From Aquila chrysaetos chrysaetos (lineage: Eukaryota; Chordata; Aves; Accipitriformes; Accipitridae), in NCBI RefSeq assembly GCF_900496995.4, contig NC_044014.1, forward strand, positions 5,530,001 through 5,594,000: a stretch of 64,000 nt of DNA. Reading direction: 5' to 3'. The notes beneath the pieces were generated by a model that ran no database searches, had not been told where the DNA came from, and worked only from the letters and a program-made list of their open reading frames with translations. A program made the translations under genes and the position numbers. Of the stretch, positions 11,706-51,000 are shown one piece after another; the first letter of the stretch is position 1, and each line of letters begins with the position of its first letter.

Positions 11706-14700
11706 AGACATTATTTATTAGCATAATTTCTGATTTCGGTTACGCCCCCGCAACTTGCTTGTTCATGTGGAACAGCGTCATTTCTCTGACTTCCTTTCTG
11801 CGCAAGGGCTTGGTGTTATCTGCATTAGGAAGTATGGTTAAGGAAAGAAGTATGTTTCTTTTTAAGTTTTTTTAGCTATACCTACTTAGCATGTGCTTTT
11901 CCTTTCACAGAAGTCATTTTACTTTTTTCTAAGCTGAAAACCTTGCTTCTGTGAGTTACATTCCTGAGATAACCAATTAGCATTTTCCGTGAGGGCTTGA
12001 GTCCACATGCCGCCAACATTTTCTTTGAAGTGCTAAGCATCTCCTTTTGACACCAATGTCAGTAAAAATTAAGAGAACTCAAATACTCCAGAATTGAACC
12101 TTGGGTGGAACGGTTCTTGTGGAGACTGTGCATGCTTGAGCATCCCTTGTAGAAAGCACTGGCGTTGATGTGCAAAGTATTTTATTTACAGAATCTGTAC
12201 TTATCAACCCTCTAGCTAACTGTGACCCTTGAAACACCCTGCAGCTTCTAGAAAGAGCCAAGATAGTTAATGGTCATATGTAGACGTGACGATCAATGGG
12301 CAAAGGCTGAAGAAGTCTAGCATAAAACCATGTCAGCGGTCTGTTGAATCAGCTCTTTAAACAAACTGCTGGATGTCGATGCAGGGTTTTGAAGTCTTAC
12401 GTGCTGACAGGCCCTTGTGTTTGCCTACTAATGGCAAAGGCATTATATTTGTCATCAACTGAACAGCAATAATTGGAGACAGCATTTTTGTCATGAACTC
12501 AATAGGTGTTGCAACAAGCCTGATGTTTCTCTGGTACTCCGTGTCTGCCACCACATTTTAAAATTCATGGACTATGCCTACTTTTTTTTATTTATTTTTT
12601 ATATGTCATATCAGAGGCCAAGCTCTTTTACTTGCACTAAGCATTTACTTGCCACAAATGCCACATCAGTGTTTTAGACATAGTAAGAAAAACTGCAGTA
12701 GAGTTTATCCTTTTCCAAATGCCTTTTGCAAGAGGATTGTTTCACTCCAGATTTTGGTTGAGCTGATCAGCACTCATCTGTGTATCTGACTCTCTGAAGA
12801 GGTAATGAATAAAAATCAGGCAAAAGTCTGTAATGTGTATGGGAAAACCAACTGCTAAATATCATTTGTGTCAACTCGTAATTGCAATTTACATTAGGAG
12901 ACTGTAGCCCCTGGTTACGTGCGGCTTTTTTCAGATATAAACAGAAATAAAGTTCTCCAAGGTGTTTTCAGCAGGAGTGAAAATACTGAGTCCCATGCCA
13001 AGGTTTGCACAATGCATTTGATTTCCCTACCATTTTTGCTGTTAGTTCAAATTAAAGGGATGCTGTAGAGTTTTGACCCAGAATCATGGGGTTCTGTAAA
13101 ATTGCTACATGCAGCTTAAAGAGGAATGTGTTTCTGTGAAAAGTAAAGAGATTCCCTGGTAGGGACAGCCATCCCTGCCAGCAACGCTGGAAAACATGTT
13201 GGAGAGGACCAGGCAAACACTTTCTCTGACATCCCGAATGAGAGATGCACATTCCAAACTTGGACACCTTGCCGGTGTTTCCAGTGCTCGTACCATACCC
13301 AGACTTGGTCCTGCAAATGCAAATTATTAAATGGTTGGGTAAGAAGGAAGATCAATTTTGGTTCAAAACGTATCATCTCCTCCACGCTGCTTTGGTGTTC
13401 GGTTCTGACGGCACCTTTCGAACCACTCCTTTGCCAGCCCAGCCCTGAAAGCCCAACGTTTGCCTCCGTGAGGGCTGAGACTGAGCCTGGTAAGTACCAG
13501 CAGCTCTGGAAACCCCCGAGCAGCAGCAGGCTGCCAGCACAACCTGTGTGCTGCAAAAAAAAACCCCTATTCACTACCATCACCAATATTATTAATCGGC
13601 CTACGGTTTGCTCAGACAGGAAATTGTTACTGACCACTTTAATTTTACTAAACAAATGAAACCACCCCATTACTCATTCAAATCTAATAAACCGCAGAAC
13701 ACAGAGGAGGAAGTGAGCACTTTAAAATGGCTTGGAGAAAAGTTCTCACTTTGTTTTGCCATTTAATTAAAGCCAGGCTCTTTACAGGAAGGGGAATAAT
13801 TAAATGGCAACGACATGTGTACTATGATAATCTTCTCCATCGGCATCTCAACGTGCAACTTGCTACTGAAGGCAGAGGGACTTTTCGCGCTGCTCTTTAC
13901 ATTCCCAGAGCATTACCTGGTCCTCAGAAAGAAAAGAATTAGAAAATACACTGAGTGCCAGGACAGATCTCTTCTGTCGTGCCCTGTTGGGTGATACGGG
14001 GCTTCGTTACAAAGGGGCCGATGAAATACATTTCCTGACACTTACTGTCTGCAGACGTTCAGAAAGCGAATTCCTGAAGATGGGCCCTGCAGAACACCTG
14101 ACAACCAGCTGTTTTATCGATACCTTGGCATTTCCTGATCATCGAGTGTCTAAAATATCAACAAAATATCATTGCAGTTTTAATATTTGCAGTTCTAGCA
14201 CTAGTTAAATACATGATATGATTTGTATGCATATGTAAATATTGTCTTTGCAGTCAGAAGGCAGACAAAGCATGAACGTACTTGCACCACAGAGAGCGAT
14301 TGCTGTAATTGTTTGCCTTTCTTCTCAACGTCAAATTACTACTTTAAATGAAGGTAATTTCACAAACAGGCAGAAACGCCATTTTCACTATGGGAATTCT
14401 TACTCCAGTGTAAAAGCTGTATGATGAAGCGTCGTGTTTAACTGCTTCTACCTGAAAGAAGAATTCATTACTGGGAATTATTCCTTTGTGGTGATTTGGC
14501 TCCTAAAAGACGATTAAGGAGAAAACCCACTAGTACCAGATAATCTCAATAATAAGGTCAACTAGCACAAAGAAACTAACATGCAACATGATTTTGTAGC
14601 ACTGCAAAGGCTGCGGAGGCTTTGTCAAGTACGTACTAGTTTGTTCCTGTACAACACGTGCTCTTTGGGACTGTTGGCGTTTGGCTCCTTCACGCTCAGG

Positions 14701-37989: not shown

Positions 37990-40900
37990 GACTATCTTGA
38001 TGCAGACATGCTAGTACTTTGACAGCCCCTTCTTTTTGTGACACTTCTTATGGTAACATCCTGAGATCGTCAGAGAGATGATGTGAGATCGCCGGTGTCC
38101 AGACGCATTTGGATGATTTTCTGCCGAGAACTTGGTTTTGCAGTCCTTCACTTTTCCAGCTCTTGAACTCTCCGCCTTTATATCACCACTGCAATTTTGT
38201 CTGAAATGTGTTGCAAAATCTATGTATTTGCCTCTATCAGCAAAAATCTGTAACCTCAAAAGAGATGTTTTTTGACGAGACCTACTTTCCATAAAGCCAC
38301 GCTGCCAAGTATCACATGCTGCTTCTGTGGTTCTTTCTGAACTGAATCCCACATTGGCTCTTCCCTTGTTTTGTTCAGATGCTAACAAAGTTTACTTGTA
38401 CCTACGCCACCACCCTGATGAATTTCTAGCTACACTCTTTCTATACGCTGTTACTTGGATTAACACTGTTATCATTTTTTTCCACTCTGTTGTGAGTAAA
38501 TATGCTACATCTAAGCACATCATAAATTTACCAATTAAAAATACCCCGTGCACTGCTGGCTTTGGATGATAAGAAGGAGTGTATGTGTATGCAGGGTGAT
38601 AACCTTGAGCTCCATGAATTGCAGTCAGGACTTCGGATTTCAAAAGCATAAAGCTCCTCCCCAAGGGCAGTCACCCGCCACAGCCAAGAGCTCTGGGCTA
38701 CGTCCCAAACATCTATAGGGTCCAGAAAGGTTGAGACCCTTTGGAGTGAAGCTCACAGTGAAACCTGTCACCGTGGGGCTTTCGTTGCACACGAAGACAT
38801 GATAGCACAAGGTACGAGGGTGTTCTTTGTTTTAATCAGAGCCACATGACTAACATTTCACATGAAAAAAAGGTTAAAAAAGAAACTGGTCTGTGACACC
38901 CAGATGTACTTAAAACTTCTTTCATTACATAGCACAGCCGGTATTGAGGTAATCTTCTCTGATCTAGATTTTAAAGCTCACGAGCCCCCAGATTTGCTCA
39001 TTCCTCACCAAGAAGAAAGGCAGCTTGGAACCTTGCTCTCACTGTGGGAAAATTCAGGCGTGGATGAATATTGACACAAATCAAGTCACCCATTTGCATG
39101 TATGCTCTTTGAGAAAGTGCAGGGGCACTTTGCTCAGATGTGCCCTCCTGGTAGGTCGACGAAAAAGAAGTCCTATCATTTTTTAGTTGCCACAGAAGGC
39201 ACTTCATTATCAGTTTCTGCTCCTTTTTGTCCCAACTGCCTGTCAACATTAAGGAAGTCAGAAAGAGTACGCCACTGCGCCAGGAATGCTTAGACTTCAG
39301 AACAACCAAACTAAAGACAATTACTTTCTGTTTTACAGATGATTGGGCGTAGCTCTGCACAGTGACGGCAATTTTCTGTGTTTTTAATGGGGTTAAAAAA
39401 AGATTCCTTCTAGTTTGTTCCAATTTTTCTGTGCTTGTCTTCCTGTTAATGTTTATGCCCAGAACCATTGTGAAACCCCCATAAATACGGTTCATCATTT
39501 CTAGACGTATACATGCATGCACACTTCAGGTTCATAATTAGGCAGGAAAAATGTCAGACCCGTAAAAAGCAAAACACAGCCCGTTACGTGCTGGGTGGCA
39601 GAATCAAACGGAGGCGGTGGGAGGCTGTGAGCCGCCTGAAGATCTGAGTCCTGGCTGTAGTCAGGAGCGACAGATGGTGTTTGTCAAGAGGATAGAGCCT
39701 TACCTTCTTATTTTATCATGGAAATATCACAGTAAGAAAACTATCAACATTCCCTATTTTATCTAACAGATTTAAGAAATACATCCCACAGAAAAAAAGC
39801 CAGAATTCCTGCTGGAAAAGAGACCACCAGATGCAACTGGAAATCCCAGTTAAAAGATGCAGTTTTGTTTATCAAGAGACATTGTTAGCCATTGCATGTA
39901 TTTTATTTTCTCATTAAGGAAATGCACTGAGCATATACAGAGATTACATTCAATACTGATTTACCCTTACAGAACAATCAGAAAATAAAGATACAATCAA
40001 CACACATTTCCTGTAGCAGAACAGACTGAAGGAACTGATTCAAGCTGAGAATGAAATGAAAAATACTTAAACCAACTTAAGTGATTTTTACACAGATGAG
40101 ATATTTAAGTCTAAATTAACATTCTCAGCCAAGATCTGTTGCATTGTTGCAATCTTTATATCCAACAGCTTTATCAGACTTGTGCCTACCAACTAAGCAT
40201 AGACCAGAACTGCCTTGTCTGAGAGCCCATTCGAACAAAACCCCAGCAGAATAGTCCCAGTCTGAAGCCGCAATCTACATGAGATATGAAAGGATCCATA
40301 CGGAGGAAAGAGTACAATAAGACAAGGAGACAGTTTGGTCCATGTGACAGGCAACAGCTACAAGGCAGACTCGGGTTATACTCTATGTGGAGGTTTCACT
40401 GGTTTCACCTGAAGAAGCTCTCTAGAGTTTGCAACCTTAATAAAATTTTTGTGAATGTGCAGAATTCTGTGACGCACTGCCGGGAACTGATTTTTCAAAG
40501 AATTATACTGAAAAAAAGTCACAACACAAAGCTAGTGGGAAAACTACTTTGCCACGTATTTTGTGAGTTCCATAAACTTGACGACCAAATCTTTTTCCAA
40601 ATGGGGAACTAAAACTAGAACGCAAAAGACGACCTCTACTTCAATTACATCAGCTGGACCTTAAGCCAGTCCTACGCATGTTGTGTGCCAGAAATTAGAC
40701 CAGATCATCACAGTTGGACATTAAAACCTACAAATATCACTCATCTGCTTGTCTGTTCCTCTCAGTTTTGAAGCAAAGGAGGTACCACCCTGCTCTCCAA
40801 TATCATAGACCTAAGACCCTGCTTAGTGCTATCACATCGTGCGTTATGTCACTTCTCATCTTGCCTAGTTTCACAATATAACCACGGTTCGAAGGACCAT

Positions 40901-41475: not shown

Positions 41476-41481
41476 TTTATT
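41476..41481 (-). terminator. Candidate polyadenylation signal of the Ly6-type gene
   Basis: A perfect AATAAA in the minus orientation, 448 bp past the stop codon of the Ly6-type gene. It is the first perfect hexamer noticed downstream. Use is inferred. Confidence 0.4.
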
Positions 41482-41928: not shown

Positions 41929-42134
41929 TCATGTCAGCTTCAACAACGGGTGCCACAGCAACGTGAAGACGAGGAGAGAGAAGTAGCTCGCGGAGGTGGT
42001 GACTCTCGAAGCCAGGCTTTTTGCATTGCAGTTGTTTGAGTAGCAGCAGTGAACGCTCACGCCAGGCGCCCTGGACCCGTCCCTCCTTGCCCGCTCGCAG
42101 AAGGACCTGAACGAACAGGACTTCATAACGCCAC
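41929..42134 (-). CDS. Ly6-type gene, exon 3: second half of LU domain and GPI signal
   Basis: The coding part runs from the acceptor ctctgttgtag to TGA at 41931-41929. It encodes GVMKSCSFRSFCERARRDGS, then HCCYSNNCN and a hydrophobic tail after a Ser/Thr-rich spacer. It supplies cysteines 6-10. The usual Asp in the CCxxDxCN ending is Asn here, while the terminal CN that closes the LU fold is kept. The GPI attachment site is probably within the NAKSLAS region. Confidence 0.88.
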
Positions 42135-42750
42135 CTACAACAGAGCCACGTTGAACCCAAACGGACCTGCAGGTTCGTGGTCACCCGCTCCTGTCTGCAG
42201 CATCCCCTCAGCATGAACCTGACCGTCCAAGATTGAGCAACAACCCTAGGTTTGGCCGGTCCTTACAAGTAAATGAATACAATTGCATCAGATTACAGCC
42301 CACTAACACGCTCCCACTTACGTTAAATAATTGTAATTCATCTTAGATGCAACTGATGCAGCTTAAATATCTCAGAACGTGCTCAAGTGCAGTGCCTCAT
42401 TAGCTTCTTTTCCTTCCTAATATCCAGGTAAGTCATTTCACTTAAATTTAGTTTAAGTAGGATTTAAGTAAGAAGTAGGCAATACTTAAAATGCTTTTTT
42501 ACAGTTTTCACATAGTGTGGATACAGCTCATCATGGCATACTGACAAATCATACTCACTGGGATTTTGTATCGGATTGCTGCTAAACCAATAAAATAGGA
42601 ACTGAGATTTATTAATAGGGTTTATCTTGAGAGGAAACACCTACCTTTGTTTTTCTCCTTAGCTTACTATATACTCTTCTCTTTCCAACACTGATTATTT
42701 ATTTCTATTTTGAAAAATTTAATGAGTCTGAAGTGTTTGTGACTACTTAC

Positions 42751-42867
42751 TTGCTTGTCCTCTAATGACCGCACATGCATCTGAATGCCCTGGACATTGC
42801 TGAGTTCCTTGTCTGTTACAGTCTTCATCACTAGAACCTACACAGGTGTAACACTGTAGTGCTTCGC
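42751..42867 (-). CDS. Ly6-type gene, exon 2: first half of LU domain
   Basis: A 117-nt exon with a polypyrimidine acceptor (tttttttctttaatgccag) and donor GCAA|gtaagt, phase 1 at both ends. It encodes EALQCYTCVGSSDEDCNRQG followed by TQQCPGHSDACAVIRGQA. It contains cysteines 1-5 of the finger, including the CYxC signature at the start of LU domains. The other two frames contain stops or give no family match. Confidence 0.9.
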
Positions 42868-43733
42868 CTGGCATTAAAGAAAAAAAGACCACTTATAACA
42901 GTAGTGTTTAGAGTTTACAAAAAATATTTTACAGTATCAGCTACACAGTCTTTATAATTCTGTTTGAAGCATATGCAAAAAATTGTTTTTTTAAAAAAAA
43001 AAAGGTTTAAAAAACCCCTAAAGATTCTGCAAATCCTATAAATTTTTCTTTTTTAGCAGTGGTCCAGATACCGATTTTAAAGATTAAAAAAAATCAGCCA
43101 TGTATTATTTAGTTGTTACAACTTGCACTTAAAATAATCCAAGAACATCTGATGTTCTGTAACTGCATCCACACCTTCTTGCAACATTTTCAGAGTAGAG
43201 TCCACTGGAACAAGTTGGAGCAGCATGGTTTTTCCCGCCCTCCGTCATGACCTTTGGTCCACAGTACCAGGAAAAAGGACATTGTAAACACATAAAATCT
43301 TACTATGATCCATATTTCATCTTCTCCTAAAGTATCAATTCAGCTGGAAGGCACAACAGTATATCTTAAAGAGTTTTGCTTTTGTTTAAACGTTACAACT
43401 GTAACTCAATCCTCTTTCTCTTCCTTGGTTCAAACGACGTGGTATTTTCAAGGGCAAGCATGAATTTGGAATATATTTAAAATACAATACTTCAAACTGC
43501 AGAGCAGAAGGCACACTTGCTGTCCACAGGGACACATGCATTGAAATTTGTTAGCATACATATTTATGTTTACATTACACGGCACAGGAGAAACTCTGTG
43601 CTGCTAAGTACATACACAAAATAATCTGAAAACAAACAAACCCAGGAGAGAAGCCCAGAACAGCAAAGAGGCTCAGCCATGCTTGAAATAGGAAATGAAA
43701 AAGAAGTTAAAAAAGAAAAGGGAGTTGACTTAC

Positions 43734-43788
43734 TTTTGAGTACAAAAAGGGAGCTGACAAGAACCAGGCTGACGACTGTCCACATCAT
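43734..43788 (-). CDS. Ly6-type gene, exon 1: signal peptide
   Basis: The ATG at 43788-43786 is followed at once by a second ATG with A at -3. The product MMWTVVSLVLVSSLFVLK is an uncharged hydrophobic signal peptide. It ends one base into a Ser codon at the strong donor AAAA|gtaagt. Joined to exon 2 it gives KSEA-LQC, a good signal peptidase site before Leu. The 5' untranslated region was not delimited. Confidence 0.85.
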
Positions 43789-44889: not shown

Positions 44890-44955
44890 TTAGCTTTTCC
44901 CCATTTTGGCAATCAGTTCATCACAAATCTTTGTTAATTCTTCTATCTCCTTATT
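44890..44955 (-). CDS. TACC2: TACC2 terminal coding exon with stop codon
   Basis: The coding part of the last exon: 21 codons plus TAA, following the acceptor ttattttccag. It encodes NKEIEELTKICDELIAKMGK and a final Ser. The extreme C terminus identifies the paralogue as TACC2 by memory of the family. The 3' untranslated region continues to lower coordinates. Confidence 0.95.
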   Translation of the reverse strand, partial: NKEIEELTKICDELIAKMGKS

Positions 44956-45145: not shown

Positions 45146-45933
45146 ACATATAGTGCATTCTAACAATATGCTTACTTATTTCACATACAGATTCTCCAGC
45201 TTCAATAAATACAATTTAGCACTAAAGCAGACAGCTTTATAGCAGTCATTCCTAGCACACAATAATAATACATAGTGTAAACTTGTTTCTAGGCTGCACT
45301 TTTATAGCATTATTTTCAACCTGTTTTCCAGGGGCTCTAAGCAAGGACGAGCTGTACTATACTGAAAGCAAGCTCCTTTGCTGAGCTAGAGAACATGAGA
45401 TATAAATAGGGAATTCCTACAGTCACTTTTGCCCTAAGCTGTACGGATCTGCATCTGATCATTTTGTCTATGTTAACAGTGGAGGCACGTAAGCTAGCAT
45501 TGGAATTACAGCTAAAACTAAAAATGGAAACAAAAACCGAAAGAAGAACTAAAACAAGAAGATCTGAAACCCGAGAACCAAAGCAAACCAAGGGCCCTGC
45601 TAAGTACACAGGTGCACACTGAGCTTTGACCGAGCCCGAATCAGCCCCGAGCGCTGGCCCGTGGCCGAGATCAAAGCCTGGCAGATGGGTCCGTTTGCCT
45701 GAACCGGCCAGTGCTCGCAGCTGATTTTGTTATAAGGTTTGGGCAGTGCTGCTCTCCCCGGGGCCGGGGAGCTGCCCAGCCAGCTGGACGTGAGGAGCAA
45801 GACAGGTCCTTGGGCAGATCTCGGCTGCAATCTGAGGTCCAGAGGAGAGCTGGATGCAGCCACTCTGGGGAAGTTTCACTTAACTTTGGTCATCCCGTTG
45901 ACTTCTGCGTTAAAGAGCTGAATTGCTATTTAC

Positions 45934-46054
45934 CTTTTGTTCCAGTGTTCTTTCCAATGCGTCCACTTTCAGCTGCTCTTTACGAAGGCTGGCCTGATAC
46001 GCTGCTTGCTCTTGCTGAGCCTTGCCTCTCACTTGTGCAATTTCAGCATTGGCT
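45934..46054 (-). CDS. TACC2: TACC2 penultimate coding exon
   Basis: A 121-nt exon. The first base completes Arg, then 40 codons run to the phase-0 donor AAG|gtaaat. It encodes ANAEIAQVRGKAQQEQAAY and ends LERTLEQK. The acceptor is tttttctag. The following intron contains a GC-rich, CpG-containing patch around 45640-45850. Confidence 0.94.
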
Positions 46055-47183
46055 CTAGAAAAACACAGATTTTTGTCACGTCAGGCTCTCTACAGGAAAG
46101 GACAGTGGGTACCAAAGGATGGACTGCATCTTAACAGATGGGTGGTGAGGCCAGGACTGCTTTCTGCATGTCTTTGAAAGTATTCTGAGACTTGTCCCTA
46201 GAGACTTTTCATGACTCCTTCTCTTGCTCAGCAGAGGCTGCAAAGTCTTTTCTTAATGTCTGTGTCATTCCCTTCACGCTTCTCTCGGATATCTGTGCCG
46301 GGTTCACAAATATCACTTAGGTAGAAGTGTTTTATGACCGTTTCTAAACTTGATCTCCAGCTCTAACAGACTAGACTCACAGCTGGGACAACAGCTGGAA
46401 AGCAAATCCAAGTCTTACTTCGCTTTAGGCACTGATCAATCCTAGTGACATTTTGGAAACATCTCTTGGGTCTAGGGGACTGTAATATGAGTCCTGAATG
46501 TAATCCCTAGAAATGCTTAATTTGTCATTACACGGAAACATAGAAAAAAAAAAAATTCAAAAAAATCAACCAGAGCTGCCTCTCTTAAGCCACAATCCGA
46601 TGTTCGCTCCTTAACGGTGGCTTAAGGAGTTACTACCCGTGCACATCTGGCACGATCTTTTGTGCAACTATTCCTTGTCACCCTCAGCACAAGTTGGGCT
46701 GATCCAGCTTAGATAATCGGCGTTACTAGGGAGAGACCGCCTCACTGATTCTGCACTGAAACAGTCGAGCAGCACTTACATGTTCTGTTCTGCTGATTGA
46801 CGCAGGGGCAATAATACAGCACAGGGGCAATAGCAAATCTCTGGGGGCAGGAATACTGGCTGCAGGTGCAAATATCTGAGCATAGACCTCCATAGCTGCA
46901 TAAACCTAGCTAATGGCTTCTTTCTTGTTCTTCCCTGGAAAATATGTTATAGAAACATGAAGACATTTGATAGAGACAGAAATTTAAGGTGTTGCATATG
47001 GTCAGGAGCTGGAAGAAACACCAGCACGTTACAGAAGTTCTCATTACGGCATTTCATTCCACCCTCCACCACAGAGCAGCCTGTGCTCTGCATATTGAAG
47101 GAGCAGGTTTGGGATGCAAGGTCCAGCCACAGGAATCCTCCTGCAGCATGAACTCCTGAAAAGAGATGTGTACAATCAATTAC

Positions 47184-47290
47184 CTGTCCAGTTTCTCCTC
47201 GGCATGAATTTTGAGTGCTTGATACCGCTGCTCTTCCTTCTTCACTCGTGATAAATATTCCTGCGCACATTTCTTTAACACTTCTTCATT
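47184..47290 (-). CDS. TACC2: TACC2 coding exon (coiled coil, 35 residues)
   Basis: A 107-nt exon starting in phase 0 after the acceptor ctcatttaag and ending with two bases of an Arg codon at GACAG|gtaatt. It encodes [20 protein letters not shown] followed by [15 protein letters not shown]. The helix continues the TACC coiled coil without a break. Confidence 0.94.
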
Positions 47291-47886
47291 CTTAAATGAG
47301 AAGATTACATTAAATTTAATCCGAGAGACTGAAGTGTAGGACAGGCACCTATTTGCAGGAGTCACATTCAGATATTGCAAAGGCTGCAGTCTAACTAACA
47401 CTGACACCCCCACACAGAGGCCATCTGAAGCAATATTACACAATGCAAAAAGCTTTACAATTCTTCTGTTTGCATTTGATACATGGCTGCAATCCTTCAT
47501 CTGAGGATTACGTTATGTCATGCACTTTAGACATAACCTCTAACCTTAGGAATTCATGTCCTAGGTTTTAACAGAATGCTCAGTCCAGAAGCCAGCCCTG
47601 ACATGTGCTCAAGTCCTGCGGTTATGTGACATCTATTCAAATTGCAGTGCCACACATGGGAGCAAGTTACTCTTGTGCAAAATCTTCATATTTTTAAAGC
47701 TATTCCAAAACAAAAGCACAAATAAATGAGCATTCACGTTCTCCCTCCCCCCCAGCACACTGCACTCTAATGTAATACATCAGATTCGACTGGAAATGAA
47801 GATGTGCCTTCTGTTAAGTAACACTGGTATACATGACAGCCTGCTCAGCTTTGCTCTTTAAAGGAGGAGACTTTAACATGACTCAC

Positions 47887-48047
47887 CTTCCGAAACCCCT
47901 CCAATACTTCTTTCATTTTTTCATATCTCCTGAAAAGATCTGCCAGTGATTTCTCCACTGAGTTCAGATCTGCCAAAGCTTGTTCCTTCTCCACTATCAG
48001 TTGCTGAACAGTGTGGTGGGAGACAGATTTCTCTCTCTGTTCATCCT
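47887..48047 (-). CDS. TACC2: TACC2 coding exon (coiled coil, 53 residues)
   Basis: A 161-nt exon whose first two bases complete a Glu codon and which ends in phase 0 at AAG|gtgagt. It encodes DEQREKSVSHHTVQQL through EKEQALADLNSVEKSLADLF to the end EVLEGFRK. This is a continuous charged coiled-coil segment highly typical of TACC1/TACC2. Confidence 0.94.
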
Positions 48048-51000
48048 CTGTTAGAAAGAGAGAGGGGGAGGAAAAAAAGTGATTTTCAGAAGGGTAATAG
48101 TAGTAAGAACACTGATTTCACTATCATCTATAGTGTCTACTATACGGTGCTCTATGCTGTGTATTAGTAAGTTTGCAGGATCCAGAAAACTCATTCTTAT
48201 ATAAAGACACAATCCTGTTTTGGAAAAAGGTTGCTAAATACAGTGATATTTAAATATTTTGATGTTGGGGAAAAATGTGAACATATCTCTGTACTGATGG
48301 TTTATTTCACTCAGCTGTTCCCATGAAAAAGGCAGGTGTTGGATTTCCCTTGTTTTCCTGAAGATGCACTAGCTGAAGGAAAGGACAGTTATGCATATTA
48401 CTAGCACTGGCAATAAATTATTTGCCACTGATGATATGTGCTTGTCATCTCCTGGCATCTCTTCTAATCCTGTACAAACAAGGCACTTTGTTTAATGGAA
48501 ATCAACTCAAATTCTTCCCTTGGAAATACAGTGTTTTGCAAACTCTCATTCTTAGGATTACTGTAGCAAGTGCCAGAAAGGAAATCAAACATTAAACTGA
48601 CTTTCGAAGTTCTGGTCTGCAGAAAACATCTTCCAAGATTCTCCTGTGTATAGTTAAATTTGAGGCAGGGATGGTGGGAAGAACACAACAGGAATCCAAG
48701 TCCACATGAAGAGAACTTTTCAAAGGAATTGACCTAGTAATAAATTGGAATACCCATATAACACTGGAAGAAAAGGTCTGGCATTGTCTTCCAAAATGCT
48801 TCCTCGTTGTTTGCTTCATATCCTAAAATATGATTTTTTTCTCCATGTTTTAAGGGCTACTTTGAATGATACTGAAATGAAACCAACCTGCAAAACACAG
48901 TGGCTTTATATGACCATTCTCCTATGTCTATGATGGAAACTAAAATAAGGTAAGAAGTTCTCACATGTAAAAAGCGTGGGCCATTTCAGAATCTACAACT
49001 TTTCATTCAGGCCTTTATATTTTGAAATATAAAGAACTAAACAAGAGGGGTTTTTTTTTTATTTGAATAGAAGTCTTCATCTGAATTAAGTATTTCATAG
49101 TGCTGGTCAGCGCTGAAATGTCAAAGCTGATACTGTCAATTCCCAAGCCGAGATTAATCTCTTTCCTTTGCATATTTCCATCCTTTCATACTCTTTTTTG
49201 CTAGCCTAACCAAGCCCAGAGCAGCAACGATGCCACGCCGTGTGTCAGCTCATGTTGGCTATGTTCCGTGCTCCTCTGCATGCCCCCGACAGCATCTTGC
49301 TGGGGCAGAGCCTGATCTGAGGTTATTTTGCTCTATATGATGCAGAAGATGGAACAAACCAGAGAAGCTCACAGGACCTGCACCGAGTTTGCAGCACTGG
49401 AAGCTGTAACACCTTTATTTTACTGATGAACAAACACCTTTGACATGGCAGAACTGAAAAACCCAGAGCCCTGTAATGCCACATCAGTTTGATAACATTT
49501 AACATTTCATAAAAAGTAAATATTCTTTTCTATTTTGCCTTCTTAAAGATACTCTGTGGTCATCTGCAATGTCAAAAGAACGTATTCTCAAGTAAAATGA
49601 GAAAACCATTTGTCATCTTTCGTTTATTTTTCTACATCTGAGAAGTTGTCACCTGGTGTTCCAGCACAAGGTTTATTTAATCACGCTGGAGATTACACAC
49701 TGTCTAGCTTAATTCCAAAACACTTACTGGCAGGATCCTGTTCTTTGGCAAAACCTCTGTCGTCGTAACTCCATGCAGGGGAAAGGATCCGTTTGCATGA
49801 TCACGTAATGTACTTAAATGTATTTAATGTCAGAACTCTACTTTTTCTGAGACTGCTGTCTGCGGTATTTTAGCAACTTCCTTCTTATTTGTTTCTAGGG
49901 CAATCTAGAAAGTTAGTAATTCGTGACTCACTCCCTCGCAACTACCGAGCTCTCCCTGTACCTCCCAGTGCATCGCTGTGCCCTCCTCTCTCCTCAGCTG
50001 GACCTCAAACACTCATTCCCAGCCCCACTTCAGCCTGCACACGGGAATTAGGGGCAAGTGATACCGATGCTGCTCTCCTGCTCTCCCTTCCACTACATGC
50101 TAGAGGTGTCCACGGAGCGGGGAGTGAGCCGAGGCCTCCTTCGACTCCAAGGGAAAAACAGGAATTTATACTGGGGAAGGGAGTGACATATACATTGAAA
50201 AGAGGGAAAGTTTCCAGTGAGCTTTAGGAAAGGGGCATCCCATAATCTCAGATAACAGTTAAGATACATTTAAAACCAAAGTGGCTAAATAAACGGAAAC
50301 TGGAATCTGGCTGGAGGGGGCCTGGAAGAGCTACGTGATATTTTCTAAAACTATGAATTAGCTTTAATGAAAAAGCCGCTTAGTGGCACTGTGCTGCTAA
50401 TAGTCTGCCAGTCAAATCTTAGTTAAGCAGTTACAGATACTTATTTCTAAAGATATTTATGAGGTTATGCGATTAAAATATTTTAATTAAATGGCTTCCA
50501 TGTCTGCAACACACGCTGTCCACAGCTCACCAACAATAACAACAGTATGCTCAGGACTAACGCTATCCAAATTGACAGAATCAGAGCACCACCACAGCAG
50601 ATCCGCTTTCAGGCTCAGCTCAGTATTACTTACATTACTTAATGGGAATGCAGCAAACGGAGAACAAAAGCAAAAGAAACTAAAAATGCAAAATGCTGGT
50701 GTGAAAGTTGGTGAAAAGCTTTACTTACCAGGCTTGCCTGATTTGTTTTTGCAAGCAAATAGCAAGAAGCAACAAAAACGGAAGCAAAATAGAAAATCAG
50801 GAATTGTTAGGAAAGCAGAAAGTAAGTAATGCAACAACCTGTAATGCACAAAGCATAACATCTGTTTTTCAGAATGAGAATTTAATTATGTATTTAAACG
50901 TACAAGTATAAGGATACATTTTTAACAGAAAAAAACCCAACATTACAAATCCAACAATAAAAAGGAAATCCACGACAGGGATTTGGGAAGGGAACTGTGG

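Follow-up and report, generated by a model that had tools for sequence, protein, structure and literature searches.

Proteins with a Ly6/uPAR (LU) domain follow a common disulfide rule (cysteines 1-5, 2-3, 4-6, 7-8 and 9-10), and in one of them, CD59, the Trp directly after Cys 6 is important for complement binding. Their genes have a three-exon layout, given as the rule for the family in PMC6600238. Many of the mammalian genes sit in tandem clusters (PMC4839075), which makes the age of single members hard to fix; the tables of that paper, published in 2016, hold 35 human and 61 mouse genes. If a pair of such genes could be tied to both of the TACC-PLEKHA blocks, the family would gain a point of known age.

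Here we consider an Ly6 gene that lies next to TACC2 on contig C11, within a window (C11:5530001-5594000, meaning the whole stretch of 64,000 nucleotides that was analysed) of a genome searched over 1.234 Gb and 144 contigs. Among solved structures, the top sequence match of its product is CD59 (PDB accession code: 8b0f), which shares with it a single LU domain, a signal peptide, an LQCYxC start, the C-x5-C arrangement between Cys 6 and 7 and a CC-x4-CN end, but has other cysteine spacings. Domain 3 of uPAR (PLAUR) has the same C-x5-C between Cys 6 and 7, whereas uPAR contains three LU domains in place of one, and 18 residues separate Cys 5 from Cys 6 in its domain 3, against 13 in the window gene. 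The clustered Ly6 genes on contig C4 also carry an LU domain recognised by PF00021 and differ from the window gene in location; the three end exons read from this cluster have C-x3-C between Cys 6 and 7, in contrast to the C-x5-C of the pair described below. The stretch C4:1779000-1887400 (about 1.78-1.89 Mb), in which four first-half LU exons are seen, is part of this cluster, which we take to be the equivalent of the 8q24-type cluster, and one of its genes presumably resembles LYPD2. The fish Ly6 protein EPG, known for a magnetic response, offers no lead for the window gene in the accessible part of PMC10688439.

The gene model next to TACC2

The features of the locus are as follows, with positions counted in the window unless a contig is named.

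44890-44949, minus strand: end of TACC2 (EIEELTKICDELIAKMGKS, then stop), the synteny anchor, found by motif, 1.1 kb upstream of the Ly6 ATG
45913-48117, minus strand: open frames with three TACC_C pieces of TACC2 (about 45.9-46.1, 47.2-47.3 and 47.9-48.05 kb)
43788-43734, minus strand: exon 1 (55 nt), coding part MMWTVVSLVLVSSLFVLK plus the first base of S19, with a phase-1 donor GTAAGT; the homologous C13 exon splits the same Ser codon
43733-42868, minus strand: intron 1 (866 nt)
42867-42751, minus strand: exon 2 (117 nt), first half of the LU domain with Cys 1-5, phase 1 at both ends
42750-42135, minus strand: intron 2 (616 nt)
42134-41929, minus strand: exon 3 (206 nt including the stop), second half of the LU domain with Cys 6-10 (CCYSNNCN), hydrophobic C-terminus and stop TGA
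41476-41481, minus strand: AATAAA, candidate poly(A) signal by motif match, 448 nt past the stop
about 14410-14520, minus strand: weak BTBD16_C piece, a far neighbour (PF21059 20.2 bits, cut-off 27; coordinates derived from residues 2427-2463)
C11:5502510-5502611, minus strand: PLEKHA-type PH piece, 27 kb left of the window

The initial annotation had proposed three minus-strand exons with agreeing phases and a 125-residue product with ten cysteines in the LU pattern, and both the coordinates and the frame are re-derived exactly as it claimed. The two introns are in phase 1, both donors read GTAAGT, and both acceptors (...CTTTAATGCCAG and ...GCTCTGTTGTAG) finish with AG; once joined, the exons encode 125 residues, 10 of them Cys. 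Exon 1 presumably encodes a signal peptide. The first ATG has a T at -3, a weak context, and the second (codon 2) has an A at this position, therefore the protein may begin at residue 2. The AATAAA listed above is the sole one from the stop codon of the gene to window position 40000.

At the other end of the product, a GPI-type tail had been suggested. The C-terminus is hydrophobic, but only moderately so: the best 15-residue mean is 1.6 (1.3 in the sister gene described below), and the stretch includes H, P and K. We regard a GPI anchor on this protein as probable.

Membership of the Ly6/uPAR family

The window gene is a member of the known Ly6/uPAR family and probably belongs to a new subfamily within it. 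The Pfam model PF00021 (UPAR_LY6) scores 33.7 bits on the product (cut-off 24.8, E 5.1e-8), and the model for snake toxins and toxin-like proteins scores 29 bits (cut-off 21.2). The cysteines are spaced 2, 7, 7, 6, 13, 5, 16, 0 and 4, which is a ten-Cys signature that ends with CC-x4-CN. The gene likewise has the LU layout, a signal exon followed by two domain exons with phase-1 introns. The reading of the gene as Ly6/uPAR holds, as does the gene model, and the remark that phase-1 introns are the standard Ly6 layout matches the rule as given in PMC6600238.

The structural relatives found in the PDB point in the same direction, with CD59 at E 5e-4 over residues 6-113 and domain 3 of uPAR at E 0.006; a profile made of both sisters finds CD59 (E 5e-4) and GPIHBP1 (E 0.005). 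Half-domain Cys patterns, paired on the same strand no more than 5 kb apart, are found once in the window and in none of 150 first-order Markov sequences of matching composition; this control is a weaker one because the patterns were devised with the gene already known. The main evidence beyond chance is that both LU exons of the window match the C13 locus in the whole-genome search, with agreeing splice positions. At E 0.001, a whole-genome search with PF00021 lists three places on C4 and neither of the two sisters; the window gene is missed there because the exons are scored one by one. In a tree of eight chosen LU domains the sisters are joined with a support of 80/84, and no other grouping is resolved. 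Viral contigs scanned with an alignment of the two sequences yield 23 pattern matches and no relative, a result that carries no biological weight.

A sister gene on C13

Does the genome contain further genes of this kind? Searched against its own genome (tblastn), the window product gives nine matches, of which three are to itself, two, with E 1e-7 and 2.6e-6, are to exons of contig C13, and four have E above 1. Of the 14 matches listed in the reverse search with the C13 product, the only ones below E 0.01 that do not come from its own exons are the two window exons. Among the best candidates, scored exon by exon, there is no further member with E below 0.01 beyond the pair. The exons of the sister gene are:

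C13:36152472-36152415, minus strand: exon 1 of the sister gene
C13:36150578-36150465, minus strand: exon 2
C13:36149757-36149549, minus strand: exon 3

The sister introns are both in phase 1, its product has 126 residues with 10 Cys and scores 25.4 bits on PF00021 (cut-off 24.8), and an AATAAA lies 131 nt past its stop. The two genes are alike in exon layout, in intron positions and in their place in a paralogous block. Intron 1 cuts a Ser codon that is aligned between the sisters, and intron 2 falls in codon 58 of both, six residues ahead of Cys 6; in the automatic alignment a gap of one residue follows directly on intron 2, and this gap can be shifted into exon 2. The products are 44% identical over 125 columns (BLAST), or at 56 of 121 residues in another alignment, and the LU domains at 37 of 70 residues (53%). 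Beyond the cysteines, the strongest common element is the block K-S-C-S-x-x-S-F-C-E-x-A-R-R. The sister differs from the window gene in its ending (CCFSDDCN as opposed to CCYSNNCN), in a spacing from Cys 7 to Cys 8 that is shorter by two residues, and in GC3 (0.82 as opposed to 0.60).

Neighbours of the two genes

The terminal exon of TACC2, with its stop at 44892-44890, is located by a motif that we take to belong to the TACC family, and further TACC_C exons of this gene exceed the Pfam cut-off. The gene had been placed between TACC2 and BTBD16. The TACC2 side of this claim stands, with its stop 1.1 kb away, but BTBD16 is represented only by a weak piece at a distance of 27 kb. A search of all three frames of the minus strand over window positions 11.8-41.8 kb does not find the BTB domain of BTBD16; apart from the weak BTBD16_C piece, these frames give only matches at chance level, to DUF4834 (E 0.026) and C2-C2_1 (E 0.085).

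On C11 the order, all on the minus strand, is the TACC2 stop, the Ly6 ATG 1.1 kb further on, and then the PLEKHA piece. On C13 the order, again all minus, is a TACC stop, the Ly6 ATG 5.1 kb further on, and a PLEKHA piece. Upstream of the sister gene lie TACC_C exons above the cut-off and a TACC terminal exon; downstream, on the same strand, lies a PH piece with 24.3 bits (Pfam PH cut-off 25.1). This piece matches PDB 1v5p ("pleckstrin homology domain-containing, family A") with E 9.4e-14, and the C11 piece matches it with E 5.6e-8. A genome-wide search with the C13 PH piece at E 0.1 lists only the places on C11 and C13. If 1v5p is PLEKHA2 (TAPP2), as we assume, the better match of the C13 copy makes it PLEKHA2 and the C11 copy PLEKHA1, and the TACC gene on C13 is called TACC1 because of its PLEKHA neighbour. 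The numbering of the TACC and PLEKHA copies as 1 or 2 is therefore presumptive. The synteny argument needs only TACC, Ly6 and PLEKHA1/2 in the same order on one strand at both loci, and this holds. An open frame on C13 (36170363-36170743), which by eye resembles an N-terminal piece of TACC1, matches no Pfam family and plays no part in the argument.

In the accessible part of PMC8983885, Plekha1-Plekha2, Tacc2-Tacc1 and Htra1-Htra4 are listed as syntenic paralogues, and the Plekha1/2 regions are assigned to one ancestral chordate chromosome. A third TACC gene, taken as TACC3, is on contig C1, and no Ly6 relative is found in the 50 kb downstream of it (the best match covers 13 residues, E 0.95).

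Origin of the pair

Because the sister occupies the corresponding position behind another TACC gene, the pair probably stems from the early vertebrate genome duplications. Taking the two statements jointly, we judge it quite probable that the window gene is intact and encodes a small LU-domain protein, either secreted or displayed on the cell surface, and that this gene and its C13 sister are ohnologues, which would descend from one Ly6 gene by an early vertebrate duplication of the block. In this scheme an ancestral Ly6 gene would have lain between the ancestral TACC and PLEKHA1/2 genes, and the duplication of this block would have followed early in the history of vertebrates. As one species is compared, the case for age and retention is built on synteny within a single genome. 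The gene had been offered as either lineage-specific or lost in mammals; the first becomes unlikely because the sister is in a paralogous block with the same order and orientation, and the second may be so.

Alternatively, the pair could be a younger duplicate, made at the level of birds or sauropsids and then transposed, rather than a product of the early genome duplications. The comparison within one genome and the lack of a copy in the 50 kb downstream of TACC3 leave some room for this reading. It requires, however, that the new copy came to lie between the corresponding TACC and PLEKHA paralogues with both order and orientation unchanged. The identity of the LU domains (53%) is also lower than that of the neighbouring pieces compared between C11 and C13, which is 36/53, 27/40 and 18/21 for TACC (68, 68 and 86%) and 21/34 for PH (62%). 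We consider a younger duplication improbable. The lower identity of the LU domains fits a pair as old as its neighbours that evolves faster than they do.

The ohnologue reading also bears on the mammalian genomes. The TACC-PLEKHA blocks presumably lie at 10q26 and 8p11 in human and at 7 F3 and 8 A2 in mouse. The tables of PMC4839075 place no human Ly6/uPAR gene on chromosome 10 or 8p and no mouse gene at 7 F or on chromosome 8. With the blocks at these presumed positions, none of the 35 human and none of the 61 mouse genes in the tables falls in them. The earlier statement that mammals have no Ly6 gene at this place is borne out for human and mouse as tabled in PMC4839075, and among the titles and abstracts listed we recognise no report of an Ly6 gene at TACC1, TACC2, BTBD16 or PLEKHA2. 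If the pair is confirmed in other vertebrates, it would be a hidden Ly6 branch that is missing from the human and mouse tables and an extra gene in a known paralogon.

Relation to CD59

As CD59 is the closest solved relative by sequence, could the window gene be the CD59 gene itself, or a duplicate of it, and encode an inhibitor of the complement membrane attack complex? The CD59 model PF25152 gives 33.5 bits for the window gene and 31.8 for the sister, which comes near, but both scores are below the cut-off of 33.9, and a whole-genome search with this model at E 1 lists neither sister. The genome has what is likely its own CD59 gene elsewhere, at C16:27623008-27624745 on the minus strand, with two LU exons spanning 27623071-27624718, one of which, at 35.3 bits, is over the cut-off. 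The C16 gene has a Trp straight after Cys 6 (SCWKASQC), as does CD59 in the PDB, whereas both sisters have a Ser there (SCSFRSFC and SCSYKSFC), and the Cys spacing differs as described above. We therefore reject the identification with CD59, which these observations make highly improbable.

Constraint on the pair

Over the 121 aligned codons, the sisters show 45 differences at first, 43 at second and 69 at third positions, and 35 of their 56 identical residues are encoded by different codons. The similarity of the LU domains stands at z = 12 relative to 500 shuffles with the cysteines fixed in place. In a simulation of drift along one branch without indels, 733 of 4000 runs keep the frame and all Cys when 0.05 changes per site are made; the number falls to 6 of 4000 at 0.2, and to none of 4000 at either 0.3 or 0.57. 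From this simulation and the third-position divergence of 57%, which is spread over two branches, we infer that selection acted on both sisters through most of the time since they arose. That the gene is recently dead or silent, with intact exons and no expression, agrees with the weak context of the first ATG and the moderately hydrophobic tail, but is very improbable when the frame, both splice-site pairs and all ten Cys are intact despite 69 third-position differences in 121 codons.

A proposed mode of action

The gene model, the LU match, the sister with its common intron positions, the matching neighbours and the constraint on the protein are observed. For the intact gene of the probable ohnologue pair we infer, beyond this, a GPI anchor, expression, age, loss in mammals and a function along the following lines. 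The signal peptide, which would be cleaved after Ser-Glu-Ala21, may direct the protein to the ER. Five disulfides would fix the three fingers of the domain, and the hydrophobic C-terminus would probably be swapped for a GPI anchor. The mature domain, with about 75 residues, could then sit on the outer membrane and bind another protein with its finger surface, for which the block K-S-C-S-x-x-S-F-C-E-x-A-R-R is the best candidate for a binding face common to the sisters. That it inhibits complement as CD59 does seems unlikely; it would more likely modulate some other receptor or ligand, a role that we put forward tentatively.

Taking the locus as a whole, we lean slightly toward an LU subfamily of two ohnologues that may have been kept in the TACC-PLEKHA-HTRA paralogon since the early vertebrate duplications, would be at work in birds, and would have been lost from both blocks in the lineage of human and mouse. 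If true, the subfamily would supply a factor at the cell surface that mammals have dispensed with.

Further observations

Near the TACC gene on C1, one stretch of TACC_C exon matches twice on the plus strand, about 43 kb apart (C1:8276896-8277012 and 8320029-8320145), with further copies of a short nearby pattern at 8290761 and 8312317. The repetition is either a segmental duplication or an assembly artefact.

A stretch on contig C37 (C37:36992647-36992763, plus strand) matches both sisters over 33 residues and runs without an intron across the border of exons 2 and 3. Its flanks have no further similarity on either side. It is identical to the window product at 14 of 33 residues (E 1.9) and to the sister at 15 (E 0.059), and it keeps the Cys spacings x7, x6 and x13, the last as in the window gene. 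This stretch is possibly a decayed processed pseudogene, or a chance match; in the former case it would point indirectly to splicing.
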